In this document: piece after piece, positions 20,788 to 53,643 of the stretch
How positions within the stretch are numbered: position 1 is the stretch's first letter
Layout of the letters: every line of letters begins with the position of its first letter
From: Prevotella sp.
GTDB lineage: Bacteria > Bacteroidota > Bacteroidia > Bacteroidales > Bacteroidaceae
DNA: 64,000 bases
Reading direction: 5' to 3'
Assembly (NCBI GenBank): GCA_017478025.1
Contig: JAFVGZ010000014.1
Span: 62,001-126,000, forward strand
Notes under the pieces: generated by a model
What the model saw: only the letters and a program-made list of their open reading frames with translations
Database searches by the model: none
Told to the model about the DNA's origin: nothing
Program-made: the position numbers and the translations under genes

Positions 20788-21576
20788 ATGAGCACAAAAG
20801 AACCAGGAATCAACCAGAGCAGAAGTGCGAAGGAGGAAGAGGGCGTAGCCAATTCTCCATGTAATGAAGAAAGTTCCCAACGCAGACAGAGAAGAACGAA
20901 AGGTGATATTGAAGCCGCGATTAATCAGGCTGCAGAGAAGCTGATATGCGAGAAAGGCTTCTCTAACACTTTGGTTACGGATATTATCAGGGAGGCTGGG
21001 ATAGAGCCGACAGTATTCTATAAACGCTACAAAAACATTGATGAGTTCTATGCAGAATTTGTCAAGAGGCACGATTTTTGGTTTAGCAACGTAATCAAAG
21101 AGGCGATGCCCGGCAAGGACATGATGGACGATGTATATAATATGCTTAGTTCATTGTTGACAGAGCTGAATGGCAAGTCCTTAATGTTAGAGCTGCTCAG
21201 ATGGGAGGTGACGGAAGGCAACGAGATTACCAATCACACATCGCAGTTGCGGGAACAGCACACTCTGCCCTTGGCAGGCAAATACCTTAGCCATTACTTT
21301 GGCACAGACGTGGATATCGTCGCATGGTCATCACTGTTGATTAGCGGCATATACTATCTTTGCCTACATAAGGACAGAGCTGAATTTTGCGGAATAGACA
21401 TAAACAACCCCAAGCACGTGGAGAGGGTAAAGAATGCCCTCAGGGTAATTGTAGATCAGCTCCGCTGGTTGATGGAGAAACAATCAGAGAAGCAACGCAT
21501 AGCAGAGAAGTTACGACTTTGCGGAGTTGACGAAGATGTTATAAGTAAATGTCTGTATGACAGACCTGAGTCATAA
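20788..21576 (+). CDS. TetR/AcrR-family transcriptional regulator
   Basis: 262 residues. The DNA-binding region is RRTKGDIEAAINQAAEKL then GFSNTLVTDIIREAGIEPTVFYKRYKN, a typical TetR helix-turn-helix. It is preceded by an unusual ~37-residue extension containing RSAKEEEGVANS, which matches repeats in other genes of this window (51141, 52832). The C-terminal ligand domain is diverged. The next genes (Sel1 and lipocalin-like) follow in the same direction and might be its targets; the 29-bp gap to the Sel1 gene suggests a shared transcript. Confidence 0.88.
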   Translation: MSTKEPGINQSRSAKEEEGVANSPCNEESSQRRQRRTKGDIEAAINQAAEKLICEKGFSNTLVTDIIREAGIEPTVFYKRYKNIDEFYAEFVKRHDFWFSNVIKEAMPGKDMMDDVYNMLSSLLTELNGKSLMLELLRWEVTEGNEITNHTSQLREQHTLPLAGKYLSHYFGTDVDIVAWSSLLISGIYYLCLHKDRAEFCGIDINNPKHVERVKNALRVIVDQLRWLMEKQSEKQRIAEKLRLCGVDEDVISKCLYDRPES

Positions 21577-21605
21577 TCATTGTTAACGAATAGCTATATT
21601 ACGGA

Positions 21606-22769
21606 ATGAAAACAAAGAATTTTACAAACCCACTGCCTCACGCATGCATAACTATTCTAATGATGTTCTGTTGTGTTGTGCCCGTGAATGCCCAACGAGC
21701 ACATTATACGGAAGATCATGCGCGGCATGCCGAAGGAGTGTTGCGTGGCATATTCTTCGACTACAGCAAAGAAAAGGCCGTCACCATTCTGCATGAGACT
21801 GCAGAACAAGACAGCGTGCCATACGCTATGAATGCACTCGGCCAGATGTATCTCAAGGGGAAAGGCGTGAAGAAGAACATGAAAGAGGCTTTGCACTGGC
21901 TGGAAGAAGCAGGGAAACATGGCTTTATGGATGCATATCACGACATCGGGGCAGTATATAAGGACGGGAGGTCTGGCATCAAGCAGGATTACTCCAAGGC
22001 CTATGAGGCATTCCTTGAAGGAGCAAGGCTTGGCTCCAGAAAATGCTGCTACGATACGGGCTTTATGCTATACAAAGGCTTGGGATGTGAACAGAGCTAC
22101 ACTAAGGCAATGGAACTATTTGAGATTGCCGCAAAGATGGGGCATAGTGGGGCGATGTATATGTTGGGACTATGCTACAGAAACGGATATGGCACGGAAC
22201 AGAATGAGGAAAAAGGCATAGAATTGCTCAACAAAGCAGCAAGAAGAGGATTTAAGGCGGCAAGAATAGAATTAGCACGTCGTAAGCCTGAAAATTATTT
22301 ACGCAAGACACAGGCCGAAGCTATTGATAGTGGATGTTCCCCTTTAAGCATGTCCGAAATTAATGACAGTCACAATGATACTACCATATTTAACGGCAAA
22401 TATGAAGGTCAGCTTGTCGTATATGATTGGAGCGGGAAATATATACTGCAGGAAAAAACCGTAAAAGTGTCTGTGAACAGAAGCAGCAATGAAGTAACGG
22501 GGAATATCTCTATCGGACACGACGACATTCCTTTTTATGCAGACATCATGGATGATGGTATGCTTAAGTTCAGGGACAGCTATGCTAACCTAAAAGAACG
22601 GTACACAAGGAAAGGCAAGGTAAGGTACAGGTTGAACTACGCAAAACTGGGCATTTGCAAAGATGGGATTATAGGTGAATTGTCTGTATATTCACTAAAC
22701 CACCGGGAACCGGAAAAGCCGATGCATATACAACTATACAGAAGTGACAGATTAAACAGAAAAATGTGA
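21606..22769 (+). CDS. Exported Sel1-repeat (TPR-like) protein
   Basis: 387 residues. An N-terminal signal peptide (CITILMMFCCVVPVNAQ) is followed by about four Sel1-like repeats (AMNALGQMYLKGKGVKKNMKEA, AYHDIGAVYKDGR..., GAMYMLGLCYRNGYGTEQNEEKGIEL are copies of the motif). The last ~130 residues form a separate beta-rich domain (GQLVVYDWSGKYI, VTGNISIGHDDIPFYADI). Sel1 repeats usually hold protein partners; the partner here is unknown. Likely periplasmic. Confidence 0.85.
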   Translation: MKTKNFTNPLPHACITILMMFCCVVPVNAQRAHYTEDHARHAEGVLRGIFFDYSKEKAVTILHETAEQDSVPYAMNALGQMYLKGKGVKKNMKEALHWLEEAGKHGFMDAYHDIGAVYKDGRSGIKQDYSKAYEAFLEGARLGSRKCCYDTGFMLYKGLGCEQSYTKAMELFEIAAKMGHSGAMYMLGLCYRNGYGTEQNEEKGIELLNKAARRGFKAARIELARRKPENYLRKTQAEAIDSGCSPLSMSEINDSHNDTTIFNGKYEGQLVVYDWSGKYILQEKTVKVSVNRSSNEVTGNISIGHDDIPFYADIMDDGMLKFRDSYANLKERYTRKGKVRYRLNYAKLGICKDGIIGELSVYSLNHREPEKPMHIQLYRSDRLNRKM

Positions 22770-22809
22770 TTGTAAAAGCACTATAAACAAATAACCAAAA
22801 AGAAAAACT

Positions 22810-23388
22810 ATGAATACCTTTTTTATTTCCAACTATTCCAAACGTATTATAACTCTTACTGTTCTCTTTGTGTTTTCTCTACATCTGACATTTGCACAGC
22901 AATTGGTGGGCAAATGGAAATGTGCGGAGGAGACGCTGAAAGAAATGGAATTCAACTTCACTAAGGTAAAAAGCAAGTGCACATTCAAGAAGGATGGCAC
23001 ATTTACTCTCGTCCTCAAGGGATACAGTATGAAAGGTGTATATACTCCGTACCGTTATATGTCAGCAGAAGCAAAAGGCAAATTCATTCTGAACGGCAAT
23101 ACCATCACATCGACAATAGACGCCAAAGACATTGAAGTGGGCGTAGGGACGGACATGGAAGACCCTGCACGGGATGAAAGCATCATGGACAAGAGAGATG
23201 TAACAGGCAACCGTGCGGAATGGAGTTACGCCAACAGAAGATATGAGACTGAATTTTTTAATGGCAAAGTGCAGGAACAGACTATCAAAGAGAAAATCAT
23301 AGAATTATGGACTTGGAATGAACAGCCCGTTTCGCCTAATGGAAGTGACGGTATAACCATAGGGGATATGATAATGCTGAGAAAATAG
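22810..23388 (+). CDS. Exported lipocalin-like protein
   Basis: 192 residues with a signal peptide ending at FAQQ. The mature part starts LVGKWKCAEE and has the strand order of the lipocalin-like domain seen in many Bacteroidota proteins (KSKCTFKKDGTFTLVLKG, GKFILNGNTITSTI). Its ligand is unknown. 40 bp after the Sel1 gene, so probably in the same operon. Confidence 0.75.
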   Translation: MNTFFISNYSKRIITLTVLFVFSLHLTFAQQLVGKWKCAEETLKEMEFNFTKVKSKCTFKKDGTFTLVLKGYSMKGVYTPYRYMSAEAKGKFILNGNTITSTIDAKDIEVGVGTDMEDPARDESIMDKRDVTGNRAEWSYANRRYETEFFNGKVQEQTIKEKIIELWTWNEQPVSPNGSDGITIGDMIMLRK

Positions 23389-23390
23389 CG

Positions 23391-23666
23391 TTAGTTTAGG
23401 CATCGTTGTTTCACACCTTTGGATAAGTCTATCATTTTGCTGACGTCAGCAAAATGGTAGGCAACCGACCGCCCTGCATTGTTGCAGGCATCCTTGGCTT
23501 TGTCTATGACATTGTTAATGTTGCGCCATTGCTGGTATCCCAAAAGGGTGCTTACTTCCCTTGCGCTCCAACATTCGGTATTGTCTATCATGCAAACAGC
23601 AAATACAAATTCCTCAAAATTTATTTGCGATGAAAACACAATTTCCTCATAATTTATTTGCAGCAA
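23391..23666 (-). pseudogene. dinD-like gene remnant
   Basis: Residues ~30-85 (ECWSAREVSTLLGYQQW, then VIDKAKDACNNAGRSVAYHF and VSKMIDLSKG) match the N-terminal part of DNA-damage-inducible protein D. Full DinD proteins are about 270-290 residues; here the frame stops after ~55 matching residues. The preceding 28 residues are translations of a repeated sequence ('caatttcctcaaaatttatttgc' type, three copies in 23609-23691) and not a real N-terminus. So this is a fragment truncated on both sides. Confidence 0.75.
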
Positions 23667-23691
23667 AAGCGCAATTTCCTCAAAATCTTAA
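23609..23691. repeat. Three-copy 33-bp repeat beside the dinD remnant
   Basis: Units starting 'aaattcctcaaaatttatttgc', 'caatttcctcataatttatttgc' and 'caatttcctcaaaatcttaaa' are spaced about 33 bp apart, separated by purine-rich 'gatgaaaaca' and 'agcaaaagcg' links. Confidence 0.75.
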
Positions 23692-23702
23692 ACTGACAGC
23701 AT

Positions 23703-23748
23703 AAAAAAAACGGTCTGAAAGACCAACTCTGCTTTCAGACCGTTTTAT
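23703..23748. terminator. Bidirectional terminator between dinD remnant and uxaB
   Basis: AAAACGGTCTGAAAG pairs with CTTTCAGACCGTTTT around an 11-nt loop, with A-run on the left and T-run on the right, so it can stop uxaB transcripts (minus) and plus-strand readthrough. Confidence 0.85.
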
Positions 23749-23781
23749 ACTCGTAAAATAAATAACGTGCTATTCGATTTA

Positions 23782-25266
23782 TTACAGGATTGACTTCACT
23801 GTCTCAAGCATTCCCTTAGACTGGATGTCATTGAGGAAGCCTACTACCATGTCGGTGAGTCCAGGAATCTTGTTCAGGTCGCCGTGCTCGCCCCAAATCC
23901 AGTCAGCAGCGAGGACACCCTCTGCAACTTTCTGAGTGTCGCCTGTAGCCCACAGGTCCTTCAGCAGGTCCATGATCTTCTGATCGTCATTAGGCTGAAT
24001 AGGTGCACCGTCTGCGCGTGTGCCGCCCTTGTAGTAGGTGATGATGGCAGCGAGACCGAGTACGAGACCCTTTGGCAGCTCGCCCTTGCGCTCCAGATAT
24101 ACCTTCACTCCTGGCAAATCGCGTGCCTGGAACTTCGGGAAGGAGTTGAGCATGATGGATGTAACCTGATGGTCAACGTATGGGTTGTCGAAACGCTCCA
24201 GCACGTCAGCAGCAAACTTCTGCAGCTCCTCCATTGGGAGGTTAAGAGTCTGCATCAGCTCATCATACTGTACCTTCTTGATATACTTGCCTACTACCTC
24301 ATCGTGCAGGGCATCGCGAACGATGTTGATGCCTGAGAGATAAGCTACAGGAGAGAGAACTGTGTGCGGGCCGTTGAGCAGCGTCACCTTTCTCTCGTGG
24401 TATGGAGCCTCTGACTCTGCTATGAGCACGTGCAGGCCGGCCTGATCTGCAGGGAACTCAGCGCGCAGCTCCTCGCATGTCATATTCTCTGCCTTCTCAA
24501 TCACCCACAGGTGGAAAATCTCAGCCTGAACAACGAGGTTGTCCTTGTAGCCGATCTTGTTCTGGATCTCAACGATATCCTTGCGTGGGAAGCCAGGAAC
24601 GATACGGTCAACGAGAGTAGCGCAAACATAGTTGTACTTCTCAAACCACTCCTTGAAGCCTTCATAGTCAGCGCCGAAGTCATCCTTCCACAACTCAATG
24701 TACTTGCGGATGCAGTCCTTCAGGTGGTGACCGTTGAGGAATATCAGCTCACAAGGCATGATGATGAGACCCTTTGATGGGTCGCCATTGAATGTCTGAT
24801 AACGACGATAGAGCAGCTGCACGAGCTTGCCAGGGTAGCTTGATGCAGGAGCATCAGAGAGCTTGCATGCGGGATCAAATGCGATACCTGCCTCTGTGGT
24901 GTTAGAGATAACGAAACGAATCTCTGGCTGCTCAGCCAGCGACATGAACGCCCAGTTCTGAGCGTATGGGTCGAGGGCGCGGGAAATCACGTCGATACGA
25001 TCCAACTGGTTTACAGCCTCACCGTTCAGGCGGCCCTGCAGGTTTACGTGATAAAGGCAATCCTGACCATTGAGCCAAGGTACCATACCCTTGTCAATAG
25101 GCTGTACAACAACGACAGAACCGTTAAAGTTCGTCTTCGCATTCATGTTCCAGATAATCCAATCTACGAAAGCGCGCAAAAAGTTACCTTCACCAAACTG
25201 AATAATCTTCTCGGGGGCTGTGCTCTTAGGAGCAGTCAGCTTACTTAGGGATTTTAACTTTGTCAT
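23782..25266 (-). CDS. uxaB: Tagaturonate reductase
   Basis: 494 residues. Reduces D-tagaturonate with NADH to D-altronate, in galacturonate (pectin) breakdown. The mannitol-dehydrogenase-family N-terminus is clear (KIIQFGEGNFLRAFVDW), as are CATLVDRIVPGFPRKDI, EIFHLWVIE and the HTVLSPVAYLSG segment. Normal length. It is alone here: uxaA and uxaC are not next to it. Bracketed by terminators on both sides, so it is a single-gene unit. Confidence 0.92.
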   Translation of the reverse strand: MTKLKSLSKLTAPKSTAPEKIIQFGEGNFLRAFVDWIIWNMNAKTNFNGSVVVVQPIDKGMVPWLNGQDCLYHVNLQGRLNGEAVNQLDRIDVISRALDPYAQNWAFMSLAEQPEIRFVISNTTEAGIAFDPACKLSDAPASSYPGKLVQLLYRRYQTFNGDPSKGLIIMPCELIFLNGHHLKDCIRKYIELWKDDFGADYEGFKEWFEKYNYVCATLVDRIVPGFPRKDIVEIQNKIGYKDNLVVQAEIFHLWVIEKAENMTCEELRAEFPADQAGLHVLIAESEAPYHERKVTLLNGPHTVLSPVAYLSGINIVRDALHDEVVGKYIKKVQYDELMQTLNLPMEELQKFAADVLERFDNPYVDHQVTSIMLNSFPKFQARDLPGVKVYLERKGELPKGLVLGLAAIITYYKGGTRADGAPIQPNDDQKIMDLLKDLWATGDTQKVAEGVLAADWIWGEHGDLNKIPGLTDMVVGFLNDIQSKGMLETVKSIL

Positions 25267-25311
25267 TTTTATCTGTCAGATTAGTATTTAGATTTACATG
25301 TGATATGCTTG

Positions 25312-25319
25312 CAAAGTTA
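25312..25319 (-). promoter_or_regulatory. -7 element of uxaB promoter
   Basis: TAACTTTG on the minus strand, 46 bp upstream of the uxaB start. The -33 region overlaps the hisB terminator and has no exact TTTG. Confidence 0.5.
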
Positions 25320-25320
25320 G

Positions 25321-25361
25321 CAAAAAAAAGCGAAACAGAAACTATCTTTCTCTGTTTCGCT
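25321..25361 (-). terminator. Terminator of hisB
   Basis: AAGCGAAACAGA pairs with TCTGTTTCGCTT, followed on the minus strand by a run of T residues. It lies 22 bp past the hisB stop. Confidence 0.85.
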
Positions 25362-25382
25362 TGATAATTATCATTTTTTAAC

Positions 25383-26480
25383 TTACAAGGCTCCTTTGGT
25401 GGATGGTAATTGGTAGTGATAGATGTCTCTTTTGACCGCCATTCTGACTGCCCGGGCAAAGGCCTTGAATATGCCTTCTATCTTATGATGCTCATTCGTG
25501 CCCTCTGCTTTGATGTTCAGATTCATCTTTGAAGCATCAGAAACACTCTTGAAGAAATGCTGGAACATCTCTGTCGGCATTTCCCCTACTTTCTCTCTGT
25601 GGAACTCAGCATCCCATATCAGCCAGGGACGTCCACCGAAATCAAGTGCCACCTGGCACAGACAGTCATCCATAGGCAGGCAATAGCCGTAGCGCTCTAT
25701 GCCGCGCTTGTCGCCAAGAGCCTTCAGCAGGCACTCGCCAAGCACTATGCCCGTGTCCTCGATGGTATGATGCTCATCCACATCAAGGTCACCCTTGCAG
25801 CGCACATACAGGTCCATCATTCCGTGACGGCCTATCTGCTCCAGCATGTGATTGAAGAAACCGAGGCCGGTCTCAATGTCACACTGGCCTGTTCCGTCAA
25901 GATTCAAGCGCACGGTGATGTCTGTCTCCTTCGTAGTGCGGGTGATTTCCACTTCGCGTTCACCGGCAAAGAGGAACTCCGCAATGGTGTCCCACGATGT
26001 AGGGCCGTCAATTTTCAGGAAGTGACAGCCAAGATTCTTTGCCAGCATCTCATCGCTTTCACGGTCACCGATGACGTAAGAGCCTGCAAGGTCATACAGA
26101 GGCTCCTCTGTAAGGTCCTTGTTAAGATTTGACTTCTCTATGTATTCCTTCAGCATTCCCGTACCGGGCTTGCGGCAAGGATGGTTGTCGGCAGGGAAAT
26201 GACGGTCTATCAGGATATTATCAAACTCTATCCCCTCGCCTTTCAGCGTCTGAAGTATAAAGTTGTGGACAGGCCAGAAGGTGTCTTCAGGGAAAGATGA
26301 TGTCCCTAATCCATCCTGATTGCTTACCATCACGAACTCAAAATCCAGGTTCTTGCGGATAAAAGAGAGGTTACGGAACACGCCCTCAACAAACTCCAGC
26401 TTGCTGAAACTGTCTATCTGCTCGTCCTCTGGTTCCTTTATCAGGGTTCCGTCGCGGTCTATGAACAGTACCTTTTTCAT
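25383..26480 (-). CDS. hisB: Bifunctional histidinol-phosphatase / imidazoleglycerol-phosphate dehydratase
   Basis: 365 residues. Two fused steps of histidine synthesis: an N-terminal HAD phosphatase ([13 protein letters not shown], Asp nucleophile at about residue 7) and a C-terminal IGP dehydratase with the metal-binding histidine motifs ([38 protein letters not shown]). The length fits the E. coli-type bifunctional enzyme. No other his gene is adjacent. Its ATG overlaps the end of the upstream membrane-protein gene by 4 bp. Confidence 0.97.
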
Positions 26481-27259
26481 ATTGCTTGTTCTGACTTATT
26501 ATCTGATGTTTGTTCTTTTCTTTGGAAAATGTCGCCATATCTCAACAATACAGCGGTCTGAAAGAATATGCTGAAAAGAAGTATCAATGAGTACGCCAAC
26601 ACACATAGCAGCATCATTCCGACATAGCCGCTGGTCGGGATGTCTATGGGGTCACTGAAATTCACCTGTCCCTCGATGCTCGCAAAGTATGTATTGACTG
26701 CTGTCACGTATGGCAGGCAGAGTATCAGCGATGCTATGACAAAGAGGAAAAGGGAGAAAAGCACTACGCCGAGCATTCGTCCCCAGTGCTGGAAACCCTT
26801 GCGGGCAGTTGCTTTCAGTGTAAATGCCTCTGCGGCATCTGCCTTTGGCTTCATCACCCATGCATAGAACATGTAGGGTACGGGGGTGAAGAACAGCGGT
26901 GCAAGCAGGCATCCTGCCAATCCTTTCAGTGCCATCTGCCACGATGCGGGATGCTCCGTGAGTCCCGCCAAGCGTCTGTACATCATGAACAGACGCCCCT
27001 GGGCAAACATTATGGCCAACAAAAGCAGAGGCAGTACAGACACGGCAAGTATCAATGCAGATGTCTCGACCTCCATATTGGCAACAGCACGCACATTGAC
27101 ATAGAGGAATACTGAGTTCATCAGCGTCAGCAGCAGAGCCACCAAGACATAATACGGCATCATTATCTTGGTGACAAGCCACAAATTCTTAGCAAGGAAG
27201 TCATAGCTATCCTTGATGCAGCGTGCGTAGGAACGTTCTTTATATACTTCTAATGTCAT
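26477..27259 (-). CDS. Membrane protein, unknown function
   Basis: 260 residues with about six membrane spans ([72 protein letters not shown]; and two C-terminal ones). No transporter motif is recognised. Coupled to hisB by a 4-bp overlap; a histidine-linked role is not implied by sequence. Confidence 0.8.
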
Positions 27260-27352
27260 GTGAGACTATAGGAAATGTCATGTGAGACTACTAAATCATG
27301 ATATTGCTGCGCTGGCAATTGTGCCGGCGAGCCATGCAACGAGGCTATGGAA

Positions 27353-31348: not shown

Positions 31349-31421
31349 TAGTGGGTACGGGAGTCGAACCCGTGTACCCGGCGTGAGAGGCCGGTATCCT
31401 AGGCCACTAGATGAACCCACC
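31349..31421 (-). tRNA. tRNA-Glu (anticodon CTC), copy 2
   Basis: Minus-strand cloverleaf starting GGTGGGTTCATCTAGTGG, anticodon loop CTCTCAC, T-arm ACGGGTTCGACTCCCGT, acceptor end ACCCACT with discriminator A. The first base pair is G-U. Identical to the copy at 31446. Confidence 0.93.
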
Positions 31422-31445
31422 CTTTCCATTCTGTCTTTCCTTGTG

Positions 31446-31518
31446 TAGTGGGTACGGGAGTCGAACCCGTGTACCCGGCGTGAGAGGCCGGTATCCTAGG
31501 CCACTAGATGAACCCACC
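31446..31518 (-). tRNA. tRNA-Glu (anticodon CTC), copy 1
   Basis: Same sequence as the copy at 31349. The pair is separated by 24 bp and probably transcribed with tRNA-Ser from the promoter at 31688-31719. Confidence 0.93.
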
Positions 31519-31548
31519 GAACAAGAATGAAACTCTTAGACAAAGGTG

Positions 31549-31636
31549 CGGAAGGTGGGGGATTCGAACCCCCGGTACGGTAAACCCGTACGTCAGTTTA
31601 GCAAACTGGTGGTTTCAGCCACTCACCCAACCTTCC
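31549..31636 (-). tRNA. tRNA-Ser (anticodon GCT)
   Basis: 88-nt class II tRNA on the minus strand: acceptor GGAAGGT, anticodon loop TTGCTAA, long variable arm (GTACGGGTTTACCGTAC), T-arm GGGGGTTCGAATCCCCC, discriminator G. Confidence 0.95.
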
Positions 31637-35849: not shown

Positions 35850-35922
35850 AGCGGAAAACGGGACTCGGACCCGCGACCCCAACCTTGGCAAGGTTGTGCT
35901 CTACCAACTGAGCTATTTCCGC
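35850..35922 (-). tRNA. tRNA-Gly (anticodon GCC), copy 2
   Basis: Minus-strand cloverleaf GCGGAAATAGCTCAGTTGG, anticodon loop TTGCCAA, T-arm GGGTCCGAGTCCC (TCC instead of TTC in the loop start), discriminator T. Identical to the copy at 36218. Confidence 0.94.
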
Positions 35923-35938
35923 CGATTAAAAATAAGAG

Positions 35939-36022
35939 TGAAGAGGAGGAGACTCGAACTCCCACGTCGCAATTGACACTACCCCCTCAAAGTAGCGCGT
36001 CTACCAATTCCGCCACCTCTCC
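35939..36022 (-). tRNA. tRNA-Leu (anticodon GAG)
   Basis: 84-nt class II tRNA: GGAGAGGTGGCGGAATTGG, anticodon loop TTGAGGG, long variable arm, T-arm GGGAGTTCGAGTCTCCT, discriminator A. Confidence 0.93.
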
Positions 36023-36070
36023 AGCTATTATTTTCTAACAGAAAGAGAGCCTTCACGCGAGAAAAGCAAG

Positions 36071-36152
36071 TGCCCAGAACAGGACTCGAACCTGCACGCC
36101 TTGCGGCACACGCACCTGAAACGTGCGCGTCTACCAATTCCGCCACCTGGGC
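36071..36152 (-). tRNA. tRNA-Leu (anticodon CAG)
   Basis: 82-nt class II tRNA: GCCCAGGTGGCGGAATTGG, anticodon loop TTCAGGT, variable arm TGCCGCAAGGC, T-arm GCAGGTTCGAGTCCTGT, discriminator A. Confidence 0.93.
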
Positions 36153-36217
36153 ATTAAGAATTGCTTTCCTTCATCGCGAGGCTTTTCGCCTCCCTGTATT
36201 ACAGTATTTCAAAGAAG

Positions 36218-36290
36218 AGCGGAAAACGGGACTCGGACCCGCGACCCCAACCTTGGCAAGGTTGTGCTCTACCAACTGAGCTATTTCCGC
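36218..36290 (-). tRNA. tRNA-Gly (anticodon GCC), copy 1
   Basis: Same sequence as 35850-35922; first gene of the Gly-Leu-Leu-Gly cluster, with the promoter at 36382-36413. Confidence 0.94.
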
Positions 36291-44121: not shown

Positions 44122-44126
44122 CACCC

Positions 44127-45587: not shown

Positions 45588-45692
45588 CGCAGCTTTTGAT
45601 ACTACCGTAAAAACACAACAATACACATTTATTTATTAACTATTTAACGCAAGCCGCCCGGTCTTCTTTGACTGATGCGGCAATAAACGATT

Positions 45693-46082
45693 ATGCCAAG
45701 TATCAAAAGCTTGGGGATGGCTGCTGCCGTCTCCGCACATCAGAATATAACAATCAAGAAGTCATTCTTTTCCACCAAAGCCATCTACACACCCACGGGG
45801 AGTCCCGTCAAGGCAATGGTGCTGGAGTATTCACCCACAGAAGGAGAGGAGGTAGAGCGCCTGCTTGACTTGCCGCCAGAGAGAATCCCCGCTGAAATAG
45901 GGAGGAAAGGCAAGCCCCGCGCTGGTGCCAACGGCAACTTCCGCCTGGAGGTATGCCTGAGCGACGACCATCAGTTCTGCTCGCTTCAGCTCTTCCGATA
46001 CGTTGACTTCATTTATCAGCCCCTCTTTGAGCCGCGCTTCTATGAAGGCAAGGATGTTGAACCGCTCCTGAGTATCTTTTAG
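45693..46082 (+). CDS. Conserved hypothetical protein
   Basis: 129 residues, soluble, function unknown. Contains EYSPTEGEEVERLLDLPPE and a C-terminal DDHQFCSLQLFRYVDFIYQPL. No signal peptide. Ends about 60 bp before the bidirectional terminator at 46146. Confidence 0.65.
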   Translation: MPSIKSLGMAAAVSAHQNITIKKSFFSTKAIYTPTGSPVKAMVLEYSPTEGEEVERLLDLPPERIPAEIGRKGKPRAGANGNFRLEVCLSDDHQFCSLQLFRYVDFIYQPLFEPRFYEGKDVEPLLSIF

Positions 46083-46145
46083 GGGCAGCCATTGGGCTGA
46101 GAATACATTTATAGTCTAAGACCATAACAATAAAAGCACACAAAG

Positions 46146-46182
46146 AAAGGACTATCCAGCTGTAATCGCCGGATAGTCCTTT
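46146..46182. terminator. Bidirectional terminator between convergent genes
   Basis: AAAGGACTATCC pairs with GGATAGTCCTTT around a short loop. It separates the plus-strand hypothetical gene from xseA (minus). Confidence 0.8.
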
Positions 46183-46184
46183 CG

Positions 46185-47477
46185 CTATTTAACTGTTGCG
46201 TCGATGACTCCCTTATGGAGCATGATGGTGAGGTCGTCGTTGGTCTTCACCTGCTTAGGATCGGTGACGATGGTGCCGTTGTGCATAACAAGACTATAGC
46301 CGCGCTTGAGAACATTCATGGGATTGGCAGAGTTGATGCGCTGCTCCAGGAGGTCCAGGCGGCTGCGCTCACGCGCTATGTTCGTGGCGGCACAATGACT
46401 GATGGTGCGCTGATGGGCATCGAGCATGTTTCGCTGCACAAGGAGCTGATGGCGGGCAGCAGAGTGGATGCGCTGCTCATAGCTCTGCAGGCGAGAGAGA
46501 AGATGGACTTTCTTCACGGAGAAAGCAGAAAGAAAATAGTGCTCTAACCGCGCCAGACGGAGTCGCTCGCGCTCCAGTGTGCGCCTTGTGGCAACGGAGA
46601 TAGCTTCAGCAGCGCTGTCTATACGCGCGAGCGTACGCGATAAATTATCTATAAGGTATGCCGCAACAGCTGTGGGGGTCTTGACGCTGATGCATGCCAC
46701 CTCGTCGAGCACGGTCTTGTCGCGCTCATGGCCTATGCCCGTAATCACGGGAATGGGGAAGTTGGCTACATTCTCCGCCAACTCCAGCGTGTCGAAGCCT
46801 GACAGGTCTGCATTACTGCCTCCACCACGAATGATGACGACAGCATCGAAGTCATCAATGCTTTCGAACACATTGTCGAGTGCCGCAATAATGCTCTGCT
46901 CCACCTGCTCACCCTGCATCACGGCAGGGAAGAGGCGCGTGGAGAAGGCAAAGCCATAGTCATTGTTGGCCAGCTGACTGGCAAAGTCACCATAGCCTGC
47001 CGCTGTGGAACTGGATATGACTGCGATGCGCGTGGCAAAGGGCGAGATGGCGAGGGAACGGTTATTGTCTATGACACCCTCCTGCCTGAGCTGCTCCAGT
47101 ATCTCCTTACGGCGGCGAGCCATGTCGCCGAGGGTGAAGGTGGGGTCTATGTCCTGCACTATCCATGAGAAGCCGTATGCCTCATGGAAATTGGCCCTGA
47201 CCTGTAGGAGCACCTTCATGCCCGCATGTAACGGCTGCCCAGTGGCACGCTGGAAGCGGGGACCCAAAGAGAACCACACACTTGCCCAGCAACAGGCGCG
47301 GGCCTGGGCTACGGGGGTGTTGCCTGTAGGGCCTTTCTCTATGAGCTCCATGTAACAGTGGCCGCGACGATCATTGACAGAAGCCAGTTCTGCAAGAACC
47401 CATAAGGGCTCCTGCAGGGTCAGTTCTATGGATTGGCGCACAAGGTTGTTGGCCTCAAGAAGGGAAATGTAATTCAT
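46185..47477 (-). CDS. xseA: Exodeoxyribonuclease VII large subunit
   Basis: 430 residues. Single-strand-specific exonuclease subunit. N-terminal OB domain (LWVLAELASVNDRRGHCYMELIE), catalytic region IAVISSSTAAGYGDF, VVIIRGGGSNADLSGFD and PVITGIGHERDKTVLDEVA, then a long helical arm and a C-terminal RGYSLVMHNGTIV. xseB, usually downstream, is not found: the gene ends 3 bp before a terminator. Confidence 0.95.
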   Translation of the reverse strand: MNYISLLEANNLVRQSIELTLQEPLWVLAELASVNDRRGHCYMELIEKGPTGNTPVAQARACCWASVWFSLGPRFQRATGQPLHAGMKVLLQVRANFHEAYGFSWIVQDIDPTFTLGDMARRRKEILEQLRQEGVIDNNRSLAISPFATRIAVISSSTAAGYGDFASQLANNDYGFAFSTRLFPAVMQGEQVEQSIIAALDNVFESIDDFDAVVIIRGGGSNADLSGFDTLELAENVANFPIPVITGIGHERDKTVLDEVACISVKTPTAVAAYLIDNLSRTLARIDSAAEAISVATRRTLERERLRLARLEHYFLSAFSVKKVHLLSRLQSYEQRIHSAARHQLLVQRNMLDAHQRTISHCAATNIARERSRLDLLEQRINSANPMNVLKRGYSLVMHNGTIVTDPKQVKTNDDLTIMLHKGVIDATVK

Positions 47478-47558
47478 AATTCAGAATGCATAATTCAGAA
47501 TGCATAATTGCAAATTTATAGGAAATTTATGAAATACCAAACTTTTCGTTGCTTTTTC

Positions 47559-47589
47559 TTTGTCAGGTAATGAAAAAATCGTAATTTTG
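47559..47589 (+). promoter_or_regulatory. Promoter of MATE transporter gene
   Basis: TTTG at 47559-47562, 19-bp gap, TAATTTTG at 47582-47589: full consensus match, 32 bp before the ATG. Confidence 0.75.
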
Positions 47590-47621
47590 CAACTTGAGAA
47601 CATTAGAACTCAAGAAAAGAC

Positions 47622-48977
47622 ATGAGCAATAAGAAAGCGGCCTTAGAGCTGGGCACGAAGCCAGTGAGCTCCCTGTTGGTGCAGTATGCGCTGCCGGCGA
47701 TAGTAGCAATGGTTGCTACGTCGCTTTACAACATGGTGGACAGCATCTTCATCGGTCAGGGTGTGGGCCCGTTGGCTATCTCAGGCTTAGCTATCACTTT
47801 TCCCTTTATGAACCTCAGTGCAGCCTTTGGTGCTGCTATCGGCGTGGGTGCCTCGACGCTGCTTAGCGTGAAGTTAGGGCAGCGCGACTATGCCATAGCG
47901 AACAGGATACTGGGAAACTGTGTGATGCTTAATATCATTGTGGGTATAGCGTTCGGCCTTGTGGGATTACTGTTCCTTGACCCCATACTGCTTTTCTTTG
48001 GTGCCAGCGCTGCCACGTTGCCCTACGCACGTGACTATATGGAGATTATCCTTTTGGGTAATGCCATCACACACCTTACGCTGGGCCTCAACGCCGTGTT
48101 GCGCTCGGCAGGCAAACCAAAGGCGGCAATGTATATCACCATCTTCACGGTGGTGGTAAATGCCATACTGGACCCTATATTCATCTACACTCTGCACCTC
48201 GGCATCAGAGGTGCCGCATACGCCACGATACTGGCACAACTGCTGGCGGTGCTGTGGCAGTGGATTATCTTCAGCAACAAGAAGGAACTGCTACACTTTG
48301 AATATGACAAGTTCCATCTGGACCGCAACATCGTAGGCAACATTGTGAGCATCGGCATCTCGCCTTTTGCCATGAATGCCTGCGCTTGTCTGGTGGTGAT
48401 ATTTGTGAATAACAGCCTGCAGAAATATGGCGGCGATATGGCTGTGGGAGCCTACGGCATATCAAACCGCGTGGCGTTTGTCTTTGTAATGGTGACGATG
48501 GGCGTGTGTCAGGGCATGCAGCCCATAGCCGGATATAACTACGGTGCACAGAACTATAACAGGATGCTGGAGGCGCTGAAGCTGGCTGTGATTGCCGGCA
48601 CATCGGTATGCTCGGTGGGCTTTTTCATCGCAATGTTTTTTCCAAGAGCCTGTGCACGGATGTTTACAACGGACGAGGCGCTGATTGCCCACTCTGTCGT
48701 GGCAATGCGATACATCATGGCTATGTTCCTGATAATAGGAGCCCAGATGGTGATAACGAATTTCTTTCAGTCGATTGGCAAGGTTAAGGTAAGCATTTTC
48801 CTCAGCCTCTCACGCCAACTGATATTCCTGGTGCCTCTGATAGCCCTGCTGCCAAAGAGCATGGGACTGAACGGAGTATGGTTGGCAATGCCTGTCTCTG
48901 ATGCCATAGCAGCTGTGATGGCATATTTCATGATATGGATGTATATTAAACGATTCAAAAGACTGCAGGTAGAATGA
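47622..48977 (+). CDS. MATE family efflux transporter
   Basis: 451 residues, twelve membrane spans in two six-helix halves. Family motifs: PAIVAMVATSLYNMVDSIFIGQGVG at the start, VVNAILDPIFIY, and GMQPIAGYNYGAQNY in the second half. Exports drugs or metabolites with Na+ or H+; the substrate is not set. Its stop overlaps the next gene's ATG by 4 bp (ATGA). Confidence 0.95.
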   Translation: MSNKKAALELGTKPVSSLLVQYALPAIVAMVATSLYNMVDSIFIGQGVGPLAISGLAITFPFMNLSAAFGAAIGVGASTLLSVKLGQRDYAIANRILGNCVMLNIIVGIAFGLVGLLFLDPILLFFGASAATLPYARDYMEIILLGNAITHLTLGLNAVLRSAGKPKAAMYITIFTVVVNAILDPIFIYTLHLGIRGAAYATILAQLLAVLWQWIIFSNKKELLHFEYDKFHLDRNIVGNIVSIGISPFAMNACACLVVIFVNNSLQKYGGDMAVGAYGISNRVAFVFVMVTMGVCQGMQPIAGYNYGAQNYNRMLEALKLAVIAGTSVCSVGFFIAMFFPRACARMFTTDEALIAHSVVAMRYIMAMFLIIGAQMVITNFFQSIGKVKVSIFLSLSRQLIFLVPLIALLPKSMGLNGVWLAMPVSDAIAAVMAYFMIWMYIKRFKRLQVE

Positions 48978-49675
48978 ACAACATTTTCGATAAGCCGGAG
49001 GGACAAAACGAAGCGGGCTTCAACTCTGCCTCGGCAAAAACAAGCGGGATGGGTTCCAACTTAATCATTTGCGTAGGACGACAGTTGGGCAGTGGCGGCT
49101 GTGAGATAGCTCGAATGCTGGCAAAGGAGTTTGACTGCAAATTCTATGACAGCGAGCTGATAAACATGGCTGCGGAGCGTAGCGGCTTCAGCCCTTCCAT
49201 ATTCAAGACCCAGGACGAGAGCCACGGAGTGCTGAAATCCATTCTTGACGGATTCTCCGGAAGATTGGGGAGAATGTCAGAGAACTTCTATGACAACAGC
49301 ATATCCCAGGAGTCTCTGTTCCAAATACAGAGCGAAGCTATCTTCAAGGCAGCAAAAGAGGAGAACTGCGTGTTCGTGGGGCGCTGTGCCGACTACATAC
49401 TGAGAAAGCACGAGAAGTTGTTCTCTGTATTTATCACCGCCAACGACGATGAGCGTCGCAAGGTGGTGGCAAACCGAATGGGCTGCGATGAGAACGTAGC
49501 TGCTAAGTATATAGCCAAGAAAGAACGCCAACGCGCGGACTATTACAACTACTATACTTCAAAAAAATGGGGAGCAGCAGAGAGCTACGACATGTGTATC
49601 AACTCCTCGTTGCTGGGTTGGGAGCGCACAGCAGCGCTGATAGCACAAGTGATAAGAAGCACTTTTAATGCATAA
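48974..49675 (+). CDS. Cytidylate-kinase-like protein with repeat-derived N-terminus
   Basis: 233 residues. The core begins LIICVGRQLGSGGCEIARML, a P-loop-like GSGG nucleotide-binding start, and continues FYDSELINMAA, FVGRCADYILR, NRMGCDENVAAKYIAKKERQRADYY, as in the cytidylate-kinase-like family. The first 27 residues (FDKPEGQNEAGFNSASAKTS) are absent from typical homologues and resemble the first 25 of the NUDIX-HAD gene at 52249. The true start may be ATG 49052 (MGSNLIIC) if the extension is not translated. Coupled to the MATE gene. Confidence 0.85.
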   Translation: MNNIFDKPEGQNEAGFNSASAKTSGMGSNLIICVGRQLGSGGCEIARMLAKEFDCKFYDSELINMAAERSGFSPSIFKTQDESHGVLKSILDGFSGRLGRMSENFYDNSISQESLFQIQSEAIFKAAKEENCVFVGRCADYILRKHEKLFSVFITANDDERRKVVANRMGCDENVAAKYIAKKERQRADYYNYYTSKKWGAAESYDMCINSSLLGWERTAALIAQVIRSTFNA

Positions 49676-49710
49676 TTCATAACTCATAATTTATAATTCA
49701 CGATTCTAAC
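49672..49710. repeat. AT-rich filler repeat
   Basis: 'aattcataactcataatttataattcac' between the kinase-like gene and purT. Confidence 0.6.
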
Positions 49711-50895
49711 ATGAAGAAGATTCTCCTTCTTGGCTCAGGCGAACTGGGCAAAGAGTTCGTTATTGCCGCCAAGCGTGCCGGCCAGTATGTCATTGCCTGC
49801 GATCGTTATGCGGGAGCACCCGCCATGCAGGTTGCAGATGAGTGCGAGGTATTCTCTATGCTCGACGGCGATGCCCTGGCTGCCGTTGTAAACAAACACC
49901 AGCCTGACATCATCGTACCAGAGGTGGAGGCAATCCGTACCGAGCGTCTGTTTGACTTTGAGAAGCAGGGCATACAGGTAGTACCGTCAGCCCGTGCCGT
50001 CAACTACACGATGAACCGTCAAGCTATCCGTGACCTGGCTGCCAAGGAGCTGGGCCTGCGTACAGCGAAGTATTTCTATGCCAAGACTTATGAAGAGCTC
50101 GTAGAAGCCAGCAAGGAGATTGGCTTCCCATGCGTCATCAAGCCTCTCATGTCTTCTTCCGGTCATGGCCAGAGCACAGTAAAGAGCGCCGACGAGCTGC
50201 GCAAAGCCTTTGACGACGCTATGGCAGGAGCCAGAGGCGACGTGAAGGAACTGATTATAGAGGAGTTCATACACTTCACATCAGAGTTCACTCTGCTCAC
50301 CGTAACACAGAAAAACGGTCCTACGCTGTTCTGCCCACCAATCGGTCACGTGCAGAAAGGCGGCGACTACCGTGAGTCATGGATGCCTTACGAGATACCA
50401 GAGAAGGATCTGAAGGCAGCACAGGAGATGGCTGAGAAGGTAACAGCATCGCTGACCGGATACGGCATCTGGGGTGTGGAATTCTTCCTCACCGACACAG
50501 GCGTAGTCTTCTCAGAGCTCTCACCACGTCCACATGACACAGGTATGGTGACACTGGGACACACAACGAACCTATCAGAGTTTGAGCTGCACTTCCGTGC
50601 CGTCATGGGTCTGCCAATCCACGACATCCGCTTTGAGCACGCAGGATGCTCTGCCGTAATCCTGAGCGACAAGGATTATGAGAGGGGCGACATCATACCT
50701 TACAACATGGTAGATGCCCTCAAGGAGGAGTGCACCCGCATCCGCATCTTCGGCAAGCCCGATGCTCACTTCGGACGCCGCATGGGTGTAGTGCTGTGCT
50801 ATGGCGATACCGACGCTGACATCAACAGCCTGCGCGACAAGGCAAAGCGTCTGGCAAAGACCATACTGGGTACTGACCCATATATGGAGAAGTAA
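49711..50895 (+). CDS. purT: Formate-dependent GAR transformylase
   Basis: 394 residues. Makes formyl-GAR from GAR, formate and ATP in purine synthesis. ATP-grasp enzyme: [18 protein letters not shown] start, [18 protein letters not shown]-binding loop, [27 protein letters not shown] metal/ATP site. Normal length. Followed 25 bp later by trmO. Confidence 0.97.
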
Positions 50896-50920
50896 TGACG
50901 CTGGCATAGCGTATAGCAAC

Positions 50921-51688
50921 ATGGCCACCGTCGTACAGATAGGAACATTTCATTCTCCGTTCAAGGAGAAATTCGGCATACCACGCCAGGCAGGCATAGT
51001 CAATGACCTGCCTGGCTATATTTCTTTTGAGAAGCCATACAACTCTCCTGAGGCGATACGCGGTCTGGAGGATTTTGACTATATCTGGATAATCTGGCAG
51101 TCTGCCCCACCCCACTCCAATGCTCAGAATGAGAAGAACCGAAGTGCGAAGGAGGAAGGCGAAGCCAATAGCAGCCTTGACAAGACTGTTTCGCCAACTG
51201 CAAACGTGAGGGTTCCACTTACTGTTCGCCCTCCACGCCTGGGGGGTAACAAACGAATGGGCGTCTTTGCTACACGCAGCCCTTTCAGGCCTAACCCGCT
51301 GTGTATGTCGTGCGTCAGGATAGACCACATAGACACAGAGACTAATACCATCCATGTATTGGGCGCAGATATCCTTGACGGCACGCCTATCCTGGACATA
51401 AAGCCCTATATCCCCTATAGCGATGCGCACCCGGAGGCTCGCGGCGGCTTTACGGACCAGACACAATGGAGCCTGCTGCAGGTAAACATACCCAAGGAGA
51501 TGGAGCTGCATCTGATGGACTGCAACATACCAACCGACACAATAAGACAACTGATAGCACAAGACCCCAGGCCCCACTTTCACCATGATGCGCAACGTGT
51601 CTATGGCATGACGTATGAGGGATGGAACGTGAAATTCACCGTTGATGGCACTACAGCATACATCATCGGCATTGAAAAGAGGAAATAA
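50921..51688 (+). CDS. trmO: tRNA t6A37 N6-methyltransferase TrmO with in-frame insert
   Basis: 255 residues from ATG 50921. SAM-dependent enzyme that methylates t6A at tRNA position 37. Family motifs: IGTFHSPFKEKFGIPRQ, LEDFDYIWIIW, PPRLGGNKRMGVFATRSPFRPN and LDGTPILDIKPYIPYSDA. About 35 residues between WQSAPPHSN and LTVRPPRLGG are not in usual TrmO and hold the repeat RSAKEEGEANSSLDK, shared with TetR (20821) and NUDIX-HAD (52832). The site is at a loop, so function may be kept. The other t6A gene, tsaC, is at 60873. Confidence 0.9.
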   Translation: MATVVQIGTFHSPFKEKFGIPRQAGIVNDLPGYISFEKPYNSPEAIRGLEDFDYIWIIWQSAPPHSNAQNEKNRSAKEEGEANSSLDKTVSPTANVRVPLTVRPPRLGGNKRMGVFATRSPFRPNPLCMSCVRIDHIDTETNTIHVLGADILDGTPILDIKPYIPYSDAHPEARGGFTDQTQWSLLQVNIPKEMELHLMDCNIPTDTIRQLIAQDPRPHFHHDAQRVYGMTYEGWNVKFTVDGTTAYIIGIEKRK

Positions 51689-51689
51689 A

Positions 51690-51721
51690 TTTGCACAATT
51701 CGCAGAAATGTATTACCTTTG
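51690..51721 (+). promoter_or_regulatory. Promoter of tRNA-Ser(GGA)
   Basis: TTTG at 51690-51693, 20-bp gap, TACCTTTG at 51714-51721: full consensus match, 18 bp before the tRNA. Confidence 0.75.
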
Positions 51722-51738
51722 CAGCCGCAATAAGACAA

Positions 51739-51826
51739 GGAGAGGTGCTCGAGTGGCTGAAGAGGCACGCCTGGAAAGCGTGTAACCGTCAAAAGCGGTT
51801 CGCAGGTTCGAATCCTGTTCTCTCCG
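51739..51826 (+). tRNA. tRNA-Ser (anticodon GGA)
   Basis: 88-nt class II tRNA: acceptor GGAGAGG, anticodon loop CTGGAAA, variable arm around CCGTCAAAAGCGG, T-arm GCAGGTTCGAATCCTGT, discriminator G. Confidence 0.95.
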
Positions 51827-51925
51827 CAAAAATGCAACAAAGTCCGTTGAATCTCAGCGGACTTTATTTATTTAATATAAGTTGTTACGGTTATTTTGAC
51901 TATCTGTAAGAAGGGGCAATATGCT

Positions 51926-52246
51926 ATGAATTGGATTATTCTGATAGTTGCAGGTCTCTGTGAGGTCGGCTTCACGTATTGCTTAGGGAGGGCGAAAGGT
52001 GCTTCCAGTGATTGGTGGAGCTGGATTACAGCCTTTGGAATGTTATATGTCCTTAGCGCTGTTTTGCTGGCGAAGGCTACGGAAACTATCTCGCTTGGCA
52101 CGGCCTACTGCGTGTGGACAGGCATCGGTGCCGTGGGCGCTGTGCTTGTGGGTATATTTATCTTCCGTGAGCCTGCCACATTCTGGAGGCTGTTCTTTCT
52201 TACTACACTTATAGCTTCTATCATAGGATTAAAGGCAATATCATAA
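51926..52246 (+). CDS. Small multidrug resistance (SMR) family transporter
   Basis: 106 residues from ATG 51926, four membrane spans. The active-site Glu is in LIVAGLCEVGFTYCLGRAKG (Glu ~13), followed by ISLGTAYCVWTGIGAVGAVLVG, the classic SMR signature. Such pumps export guanidinium-type or quaternary ammonium compounds with protons; the subtype is not certain. The stop is 2 bp before the next ATG. Confidence 0.93.
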   Translation: MNWIILIVAGLCEVGFTYCLGRAKGASSDWWSWITAFGMLYVLSAVLLAKATETISLGTAYCVWTGIGAVGAVLVGIFIFREPATFWRLFFLTTLIASIIGLKAIS

Positions 52247-52248
52247 AT

Positions 52249-53643
52249 ATGAACGTTTTCGATAAGCCAGAAGAGCAGAGTGATGCTCACATCGACTCCG
52301 CTTTGGCGAGAAAAAGTCAGATGAAATACAAGGATAACGAAAAAGAATTATTCCCCTTAGTGGACGAGGATGGTACAGTCACTGGCTGTGCCACACGTGG
52401 TGAGTGTCACAGCGGTTCAAGGCTGCTGCACCCCGTGGTTCACCTTCACGTATTCAATTCCAAAGGAGAGCTATACCTACAACAGCGTCCTGAGTGGAAG
52501 GATATCCAGCCAGGCAAATGGGATACTGCCGTGGGTGGGCATGTAGATTATCGTGAGCAATGGAACGACGCGTTGCTTAGGGAAGCGAGGGAAGAACTGG
52601 GCATCACGGACTTCACGCCAGTATATATGGGCAAGTACGTGTTTGACAGTGACCGTGAACGTGAACTGGTGTATGTGAACCGCACAACGTACGATGGTGC
52701 TATCACGCCTTCTAAGAGTGAACTCTCAGGTGGTCGGTTCTGGTCCATGAAGGAGATAAACGATGCAATGGGCAAGGGAATACTGACTCCGAACTTCGAG
52801 CGTGAGTTTCAGCGTTTCTTCGGCAATGACCGAGGCGCTAAGGAGGAAGGCGCAGCCAAATACGCAATGTTTTTCGACATCGACGGTACGCTGGTGAGCT
52901 TTAAGACCCATAAGATTCCTGCCTCTACGATTGCCGCCCTTACTGAGGCAAAGGAGCATGGTCATAAGGTGTTTATTGCTACAGGCCGTCCTCCACTTAT
53001 CATAACAAACCTTGGAGACATAGAACACTTGATAGACGGCTATATCACCACTAACGGTGCTCTCTGCTACGTTGGGGATGAGACAGTATGCTGCAAGAGC
53101 ATCCCCGATAATGCTGCGCGCCTGTTGGTAGATGATGCCTTAGCTAATGATTACAGTATGATAGTCGTGGGCGAAAGGGATGTGGCAGTGATTGACCCGC
53201 ATGGTGAGGTTGATAGGATATTCCGTCAGGAGATTGCTGTGGAGAACCTTGACCTTGAGAAACCTCTGGAGACTGTGATGCAGCAACGCATCATGCAAAT
53301 CACCCCATTCTTCGACGAAAGCTATGAACGCGAGATGATGGCCCGTATTCCTTGTTGCGTTTCCGGGCGATGGCACCCCTCATTTACCGACATCACCGCG
53401 AAGGGTGCAGACAAGGGTGCCGGTATCATGGCGTTGGCAGCTCACCTGGGCTTCAACCCCCGTCATACAATAGCATTCGGTGACGGCGGCAACGACACAT
53501 CGATGATAAGGTCTGCCGGCATCGGAGTGGCAATGGGTAACGCCCTTGACTCTCTGAAGGCAGAGGCAGACTATATCACCACCTCCGTGGATGAGGATGG
53601 AGTGATGAATGCCCTGCGCCATTTTGGGATTATCTCCGCATGA
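52249..53643 (+). CDS. NUDIX hydrolase fused to Cof-type HAD phosphatase
   Basis: 464 residues. The NUDIX half (about 25-195) has LQQRPEWKDIQPGKWDTAVG and the NUDIX box GGHVDYREQWNDALLREAREELG. The HAD half (about 205-464) has MFFDIDGTLVSF (Asp nucleophile), IATGRPP, and AFGDGGNDTSMIRSAG. The joint is RGAKEEGAAKYA, a copy of the repeat in TrmO and TetR, so the fusion probably arose around that repeat. The first 25 residues (FDKPEEQSDAHIDSALARKS) match the N-terminal extension at 48974. Substrates are nucleoside-diphosphate-like and sugar-phosphate-like compounds by family. Confidence 0.9.
   Translation: MNVFDKPEEQSDAHIDSALARKSQMKYKDNEKELFPLVDEDGTVTGCATRGECHSGSRLLHPVVHLHVFNSKGELYLQQRPEWKDIQPGKWDTAVGGHVDYREQWNDALLREAREELGITDFTPVYMGKYVFDSDRERELVYVNRTTYDGAITPSKSELSGGRFWSMKEINDAMGKGILTPNFEREFQRFFGNDRGAKEEGAAKYAMFFDIDGTLVSFKTHKIPASTIAALTEAKEHGHKVFIATGRPPLIITNLGDIEHLIDGYITTNGALCYVGDETVCCKSIPDNAARLLVDDALANDYSMIVVGERDVAVIDPHGEVDRIFRQEIAVENLDLEKPLETVMQQRIMQITPFFDESYEREMMARIPCCVSGRWHPSFTDITAKGADKGAGIMALAAHLGFNPRHTIAFGDGGNDTSMIRSAGIGVAMGNALDSLKAEADYITTSVDEDGVMNALRHFGIISA

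Follow-up and report, generated by a model that had tools for sequence, protein, structure and literature searches.

Near-identical DNA in three unrelated Prevotella genes: probable short copies of a small mobile hairpin repeat that enters genes in frame

Why do a TetR-family regulator, a tRNA methyltransferase and a NUDIX-HAD fusion protein, encoded by three unrelated genes of one Prevotella contig, share the same short peptide? The stretch that contains them, hereafter the window (64,000 nt; G000:C26:62001-126000, where G, C and L numbers are our handles for genomes, contigs and loci), belongs to a draft genome of 2.93 Mb in 43 contigs that is 84.7% complete. An earlier note on this DNA had described an in-frame R-S/G-A-K-E-E-G peptide repeat and suggested a small mobile repeat that enters coding regions without breaking them, comparable to the Rickettsia palindromic elements. 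The evidence presented here makes it quite probable that each segment is a short copy of a mobile repeat of Bacteroidales, small and non-autonomous, that inserts at (C/G)AA. The peptide is present as described, but it is only what one reading frame gives for the 3' end of a larger hairpin element, and this element is found between genes as well.

The repeat in the three genes is real. Exact matches to GAAGTGCGAAGGAGGAAG stand at 20822-20839 (+) and 51141-51158 (+), and a match with three mismatches at 52832-52849 (+), whereas 0.04 matches per window are expected by chance at up to three mismatches, and three matches were obtained in 0 of 100 shuffles. The shared DNA segment of about 30 nt is common to the N-terminus of the TetR protein, the TrmO loop and the NUDIX-HAD linker, and all three copies lie on the coding strand and are read in the same frame, as had been noted. 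According to Pfam and NCBIfam, the hosts are a TetR-family regulator gene (20788-21576, +; PF00440, with TetR_N starting at residue 47), the gene for TrmO, the tRNA N6-threonylcarbamoyladenosine(37)-N6 methyltransferase (50921-51688, +, with a start codon chosen by us; PF01980, TIGR00104 above cut-off, TrmO_N matching in two stretches), and a NUDIX-HAD (Cof-type) fusion gene (52249-53643, +; PF00293, PF08282, TIGR00099). The TrmO copy (51137..51168, +; N-RSAKEEGEA-N), AACCGAAGTGCGAAGGAGGAAGGCGAAGCCAA, runs from AACCGA to GCCAA over 32 nt, with both element termini present and the interior gone; it represents a net 30 nt, or 10 codons, if one AA counts as target, and scores 33.7 bits (E 3.4e-6) with a covariance model. 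The NUDIX-HAD linker copy (52828..52859, +; DRGAKEEGAAK; 32.2 bits, E 7.9e-6) contains CCGAGGCGCTAAGGAGGAAGGCGCAGCCAA, which ends at 52859 and differs from the family consensus at 2 of 30 positions. The copy in the TetR N-terminal tail (20812..20852, +; N-QSRSAKEEEGVA-N) runs from AACC to GCCAA over 41 nt with three extra nt, a net 39 nt or 13 codons on the same count of one AA as target, and is identical to the TrmO copy at 28 of 29 positions once the 3-nt insertion is removed. The 5' half of the element family has no match in the window at up to three mismatches.

Aligned orthologues of the host genes do without the segment, in agreement with the earlier statement that none of the host families usually has it. 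TrmO was matched in 71 of 80 genomes including our own, and the segment is in none of the best-scoring 29 of the other 70, most of which have a loop of a few residues; since five of them (L146-L150) carry longer loop inserts that differ from the repeat, this loop tolerates additions. The NUDIX-HAD fusion exists without the segment in three genomes (G056, G034, G032), so that the repeat need not have created the fusion, and at the junction (FFGKELGIKYALFF vs FFGNDRGAKEEGAAKYAMFF) the net gain is six residues in comparison with these fused orthologues. The segment is also not in the eight nearest TetR orthologues (44-75% identity), whose alignment starts at residue 25-27. As a separate observation, the NUDIX-HAD protein starts with ~25 residues (EEQSDAHIDSALARKSQ, window 52249-52331) that fail to align with those of relatives and look like the element read in another frame (EQSDAGINSAES); the covariance model gives only 8.3 bits (E 3.6) on this stretch, and a 23-residue stretch 83% identical to it lies at G000:C6:53003-53071.

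The ~30-nt piece is the 3' part of an interspersed unit of 71-77 nt, AACCGACG(A/C)CAA(A/G)CCGAG-NGC-(variable hairpin)-GCCGAGG-NGCGAAGGAGGAAGGC-NAA-GCCAA. The full unit can be written as (C/G)AA-(core)-AA, with a core of typically 67-73 nt that starts with CCGACG or a variant and ends with GGC-NNA-GCC. Further copies exist in the genome of the window, with 10 places at E<=1e-3 and 25 at E<=10, a list that includes the two stronger window copies (TrmO, NUDIX-HAD) and whose weak members are doubtful. Covariance-model matches include C11:1557-1630, C11:512-588 and C39:77292-77368, as well as tandem copies at C1:191759-191833 and 191832-191892 with a period of 73 nt. Among 25 genomes, chosen for holding matches or being our own and with 150 candidates scored in each, copy number at E<=1e-3 ranges from 1 to 123: at least 123 in the Bacteroidaceae metagenome-assembled genome (MAG) G311, at least 87 in Hoylesella loescheii (G301), at least 68 in G300, at least 47 in G310, at least 41 in G306, and at least 30 and at least 14 in two Alistipes genomes.

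A search of the genus at up to one mismatch gave matches in 15 of 299 genomes including our own; we judged nine of the 14 others to have clear element context, one to be questionable (G170, L021) and four to be chance-like, the codon strings in G053, G080, G125 and G298 (L017, L020, L023, L029, L033) being discounted. A scan of named genomes returned 71 stretches, at least eight of them coincidental (L052, L063, L069, L075, L085, L092, L095 and L103, discounted as not the element). By record title, carriers include Prevotella, Hoylesella, Bacteroides, Barnesiella, Alistipes, Proteiniphilum and others, and those with element context are Bacteroidales wherever the title names a group; the family is thus dispersed in the genomes of certain bacteria of the gut and rumen. 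Several matches lie within tens of bases of contig ends, as expected because repeats break assemblies. By blastn, one element had no match against phages and two had none against plasmids; a pattern match in IMG/VR (L105) was judged a coincidental codon string, and a second IMG/VR pattern search gave 0 matches.

Filled and empty sites are seen in TraM of conjugative transposons, which exists in versions with and without the element. Filled TraM reads GGGAAACCGAAG-AA-(67 nt)-AA-GGAGCGC, or close variants, at eight loci from six genomes (L018/L070 and L030/L061 each counted as one genome). Empty TraM reads GGGAAACCGAAG-AA-GGAGCGC in L333-L335, with flanks up to 98.75-99% identical to the filled version, and shows the same gap with more changes in L336-L342, where L337-L342 have A for G before the AA. 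In the clean part of the alignment, with 10 empty loci (L343, too diverged to place, was excluded), the gain is exactly 69 nt, or 23 codons, at GAA, with AA at both ends. The TraM search also matched the element peptide alone in open frames of G733, G761, G702, G699, G751, G679 and G667, which are otherwise unrelated to TraM as far as the match shows. A flank search of the loci found that AA remains where the element is absent, both for an element nested in the loop of another (...CTTG-AA-TGGCCGAGG...) and for L284 vs L283 and L279 vs L284. Adjacent or tandem copies (e.g. L278) have a period of core+2. Of 117 distinct copies, 109 carry C or G at -1 before AA, a count in which C is favoured by the tandem copies included. 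The element would thus insert at (C/G)AA and leave AA at both ends, as seen at TraM and at sites in one high-copy genome (G311), through either a 2-bp duplication or the insertion of an AA-ended element beside an AA. Inspection of alignment A1 shows no terminal inverted repeats (AACCGAC... vs the complement of ...GGCNAAGCCAA), which distinguishes it from a miniature inverted-repeat transposable element.

How do the 30-40 nt forms in the window relate to the full unit? We favour the view that they have probably lost the central hairpin, and that the short form may stem from deletion between the CCGA(G) repeats beside it. Such repeats stand on both sides of the hairpin and would permit slippage deletion, and the short copy in LspA lies in tandem with a full copy. 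Both points argue against the best surviving alternative, that the short form is an independent mini-element (AACC...GCCAA) and not a hairpin-deleted remnant. This alternative draws on the two of three copies that keep both termini and are multiples of three after removal of one AA, and on a pattern scan of the loci that found TrmO, LspA and one weaker case (L268) alone, while missing the TetR copy because of its 3 extra nt; we regard it as rather unlikely, though it deserves to be taken seriously.

Copies that land within genes appear to be tolerated under certain constraints. Among 198 element places that differ in context, 124 are not within an open frame of at least 150 residues. A Pfam scan of part of the element-containing frames, comprising 40 on the element strand and 20 on the opposite strand (shorter or overlapping opposite-strand frames were left out), gave matches for 28 and 5 of them, respectively. 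On the element strand, we judged the element to lie between domains or to split a domain in GH106 (L290), leucyl-tRNA synthetase (L319), beta-galactosidase (L025), MurF-Alr (L275; NF008897, 1124.7 bits), histidinol dehydrogenase (HisD, L277, with two elements), a helicase (L038), an esterase (L320), CobT (L055), a primase-like Toprim protein (L062), L323, a MobA relaxase (L045), O6-methylguanine methyltransferase (L268), UPF0227 (L322), GNAT (L108) and TraM (L043). On the opposite strand the only such host is a CcsB-like protein (L303), a membrane protein inside which the element reads more hydrophobic. This list of 15 (+) vs 1 (-) hosts is our reading of Pfam positions, less sure for L323, L322 and L038; it omits elements solely near the N- or C-terminus or upstream of a likely start, the borderline L028, and the other four opposite-strand frames with a Pfam match, where the element lies towards an end of the open frame. 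Of the 568 stop-free frames counted over 161 copies, the element strand has 303, which is only a slight excess. The strand bias among hosts has a p of 5e-4, and the excess of copies whose core+2 is a multiple of three (49 of 63 in open frames vs 41 of 85 outside) a p of 3e-4, both of which overstate independence because copies are related by descent. The same length rule holds for 16 of the 17 elements of the judged hosts, the exception being L025 (76 nt).

These biases are consistent with a simple course of events, in which a core+2 that is a multiple of three, on the tolerated strand, keeps the host gene open; the protein would then gain typically 23-25 residues, mostly hydrophilic, as predicted from the open frames (e.g. 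NRRQAESHQACLNGRGAKEEGKAN), and badly landed copies would be removed by selection, as the orientation and length biases suggest. The genome of the window offers further cases: LspA has gained REAKEEGKAN at its C-terminus, a GNAT enzyme carries EPMEQREQSDACISSAESRQRKTVGQ inside its domain, and an RND-family transporter carries AIKREQSDAGINSAESEQ inside ACR_tran. The GNAT and RND copies are read in a forward frame other than that of the window copies, and the idea of AKEEG as a special frame was rejected because other forward frames are used too. In 15 of 16 judged hosts it is the same strand that is read, but in more than one frame. Since the element serves several frames and also lies outside genes, conservation does not act on the peptide, which is a by-product. 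As a side observation, a Beta-lactamase2-family protein has an element just after its likely signal peptide both in our genome (L106:755-1825, -) and in G306 (L321:1480-2367, +), the same site in two genomes suggesting descent of one insertion.

The DNA itself has a conserved fold. In RNAalifold, the first ~58 nt of the core form one hairpin in which short Watson-Crick helices are separated by tandem G.A steps, with 18 pairs, 12 of them with double changes, over 22 sequences. In a MAFFT-only alignment of the 22, from which the structure was also taken, 92.4% of cells are paired vs 79.4% in shuffles, with 50 vs 15.5 compensatory cells and a covariation score of 0.39 vs 0.17, and sliding the partner by 1-3 columns destroys the pairing. 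Further pair types alone are less striking (25 vs 21.4, reached in 29 of 500 shuffles). In all 4 sequences with AACTGA at the 5' end, the 3' end has GGAAGAAGG. The tandem GA steps are present in 22, 22, 22 and 17 of the 22 sequences, and single-sequence folds are moderately better than shuffles (z -0.98 to -2.79, five sequences). The last 9 nt before AA form a GGC-NNA-GCC mini-hairpin whose loop is GNA in 12 of 22 and ANA in 10 of 22; those of the three window copies are GTA, GAA and GCA. The sequence d(GCGNAGC) is an unusually stable DNA mini-hairpin.

This covarying fold, together with the 124 places outside open frames, is also what would be seen in a structured cis-acting RNA retained because it works as a terminator, a stabiliser or a processing site, the copies in coding regions being by-products. 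We consider this improbable, as copies stand inside conserved enzymes, nested and in tandem, aligned orthologues do without them, and no Rfam family was matched in 10 loci (E<=0.5) or in the window (gathering score). An Rfam match to HepC_CRE overlapping elements in L272 was taken as chance, at 21 bits vs a cut-off of 140.

What, then, might move a repeat of this kind? The features observed are a strand-specific fold, a lack of evident terminal inverted repeats, (C/G)AA sites, AA at both ends, and tandem and nested copies; the fold suggests a single-stranded DNA route. Elements of the IS200/IS605 group lack terminal inverted repeats, have strand-specific subterminal hairpins and use a very short adjacent target that their right end resembles. 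The present element shares the strand-specific hairpin, the lack of evident terminal inverted repeats, the insertion beside a very short target and a right end (GCC-AA) that resembles its target (C/G-AA). This last likeness makes it probable that the single strand, once folded, undergoes cutting and joining at AA, presumably by an enzyme acting in trans. It differs in that the Y1 transposase domain (Y1_Tnp, PF01797) was found in 12 of 25 carrier genomes, several matches being weak or partial, and not in the other 13, which include the richest genome, G311 (123 copies), as well as G306, G310, G317 and G318; as these genomes are mostly drafts, a Y1 gene may have been missed. Around 18 Y1 loci (up to 1.5 kb on each side) there is no element at E<=1. 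On these grounds, Y1 transposases, including the transposases associated with repetitive extragenic palindromes (RAYT and REP, respectively), look unlikely as the movers.

The same results bear on the possibility that the element belongs to the GTAG or CGTC super-families of REPs moved by RAYT transposases. According to the accessible text of Di Nocera et al. 2013 (PMC3733652), REPs are 20-40 bp long with a 4-nt tag (GTAG or CGTC), the CGTC type having an 8-9 bp stem, and CGTC REPs are reported from Bacteroidetes, apparently without a dedicated transposase. As far as that text describes them, the likeness lies in short hairpins in many copies, some intragenic, and in a type that has no known transposase. 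The present element is 71-77 nt in most copies, has no GTAG or CGTC tag beside its stem on inspection of alignment A1, bears AA at both ends and has no RAYT that we found, so that membership seems to us still more improbable than a role as cis-acting RNA. Last and least, it is barely credible that K/E/G-rich charged linkers came to resemble each other by chance or shared low complexity with no mobile DNA involved, since, for all that the three sites are loops, tails or linkers, that TrmO L146-L150 have other long inserts (with SRKEEGGG in purine-rich DNA in L150) and that the window TrmO loop is longer than the repeat accounts for, the DNA identity extends to third codon positions, intergenic copies and copies read in other frames consist of this same DNA, and the filled and exact empty TraM sites and the covarying hairpin contradict convergence, which was rejected on this account.

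Several points weigh against our reading of the window segments as short copies of a mobile repeat. Besides the dependence among copies and the personal judgement behind the 15-to-1 host list, the mobilising enzyme was not found, and the window copies have no hairpin, so that their origin by internal deletion is a reconstruction. Apart from TraM, every AA site is from a single genome (G311), and these sites are partly paralogous or nested repeats, and a few of the pairs listed gave gaps other than 2 (e.g. L328 vs L087). The TetR copy is weak when taken alone (14.6 bits; E 0.11 for the window and 5.3 for the genome). The window TrmO loop exceeds that of short-loop orthologues by ~30 residues, only 10 of which can be put down to the repeat, and the NUDIX-HAD gain (+18 nt) is smaller than a whole short element, so other bases must have changed too. 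Finally, an even sample of the phylum yielded the element in 2 of 296 genomes including our own, so that the family looks confined, mostly to Bacteroidales; with its stricter filters and few close relatives, this sample is a poor census.

The closest parallel is in behaviour. Rickettsia palindromic elements (RPE) and their Wolbachia counterparts are multi-copy palindromic DNA found in frame in unrelated protein genes. Like them, the present element is inserted in frame in protein-coding genes, is missing from aligned orthologues and is read as an extra peptide, which bears out the comparison drawn in the earlier note. It differs in occurring in Bacteroidales and not Rickettsiales, in its fold of a tandem G.A hairpin plus mini-hairpin, and in having no CGTC tag, which the R. 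conorii RPE-4 and RPE-6 carry according to the accessible text of PMC3733652; the likeness seen is one of behaviour. On mechanism, nothing was found in the accessible part of the RPE literature (PMC2635572). Within Prevotella, PINSR, a 188-bp repeat of P. intermedia and P. nigrescens, is likewise short, of high copy number and without terminal inverted repeats; as described in the accessible part of PMC4755523, it is reported as intergenic, and its length and location differ from those of a unit of 71-77 nt that is partly intragenic. Searches of one open-access library by theme and by sequence letters returned no paper on the repeat.

Some further observations concern its surroundings. In the genome of the window, a near-identical, related sub-family (C15:88885, C26:21058, C1:863 and C31:3876; L113-L116) has hairpins TTCCGATTAAGCGAGAGCC...GTCAAACGAA, one with a G, and lies beside another simple repeat, adjoining GAGTGAAAAGTGAA-like runs or GTTTAAGAGTGAAGAATTA. 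In two MAGs (CAMGOT, e.g. loci L051, L056, L079 and L093; CAJOOC, e.g. loci L039, L049, L057 and L088) a conserved motif, AATTTATAGAACACCC or AATTAATAGAACCCACC-like, comes after the element, an arrangement that resembles part of a larger composite repeat. The window also holds two tRNA clusters on the minus strand (Rfam), at 31349-31636 (3 tRNAs) and 35850-36290 (4 tRNAs).

Together with the empty and filled TraM sites, the in-frame copies in conserved enzymes uphold the proposal of a small mobile repeat that enters coding regions without breaking them: the small mobile hairpin repeats form a real family, apparently not described before, whose members enter genes in frame. We would go further only tentatively, granting a little less than an even chance to the idea of a new class of single-stranded DNA hairpin mobile element in Bacteroidota, whose enzyme would recognise the G.A hairpin and the GGC-NNA-GCC end and join at (C/G)AA. 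Tolerance of such an element within genes might come from its preferred strand, which gives hydrophilic peptides in several frames, and the element might so act as a natural generator of in-frame linkers, including that at the NUDIX-HAD junction.

Most known cases of selfish DNA persisting within protein genes are from Rickettsia and Wolbachia. Some REP-rich genomes also have intragenic selfish repeats, according to the accessible text of PMC3733652. A family that has exact empty sites, copies nested in one another and members inserted in conserved enzymes, and that is present also in cultured Bacteroidales, would make the mechanism of mobility directly testable. In Bacteroidales, the cost or use of the inserted peptides would become testable, and the family would explain some of the odd repeated peptides in the proteins of these bacteria.

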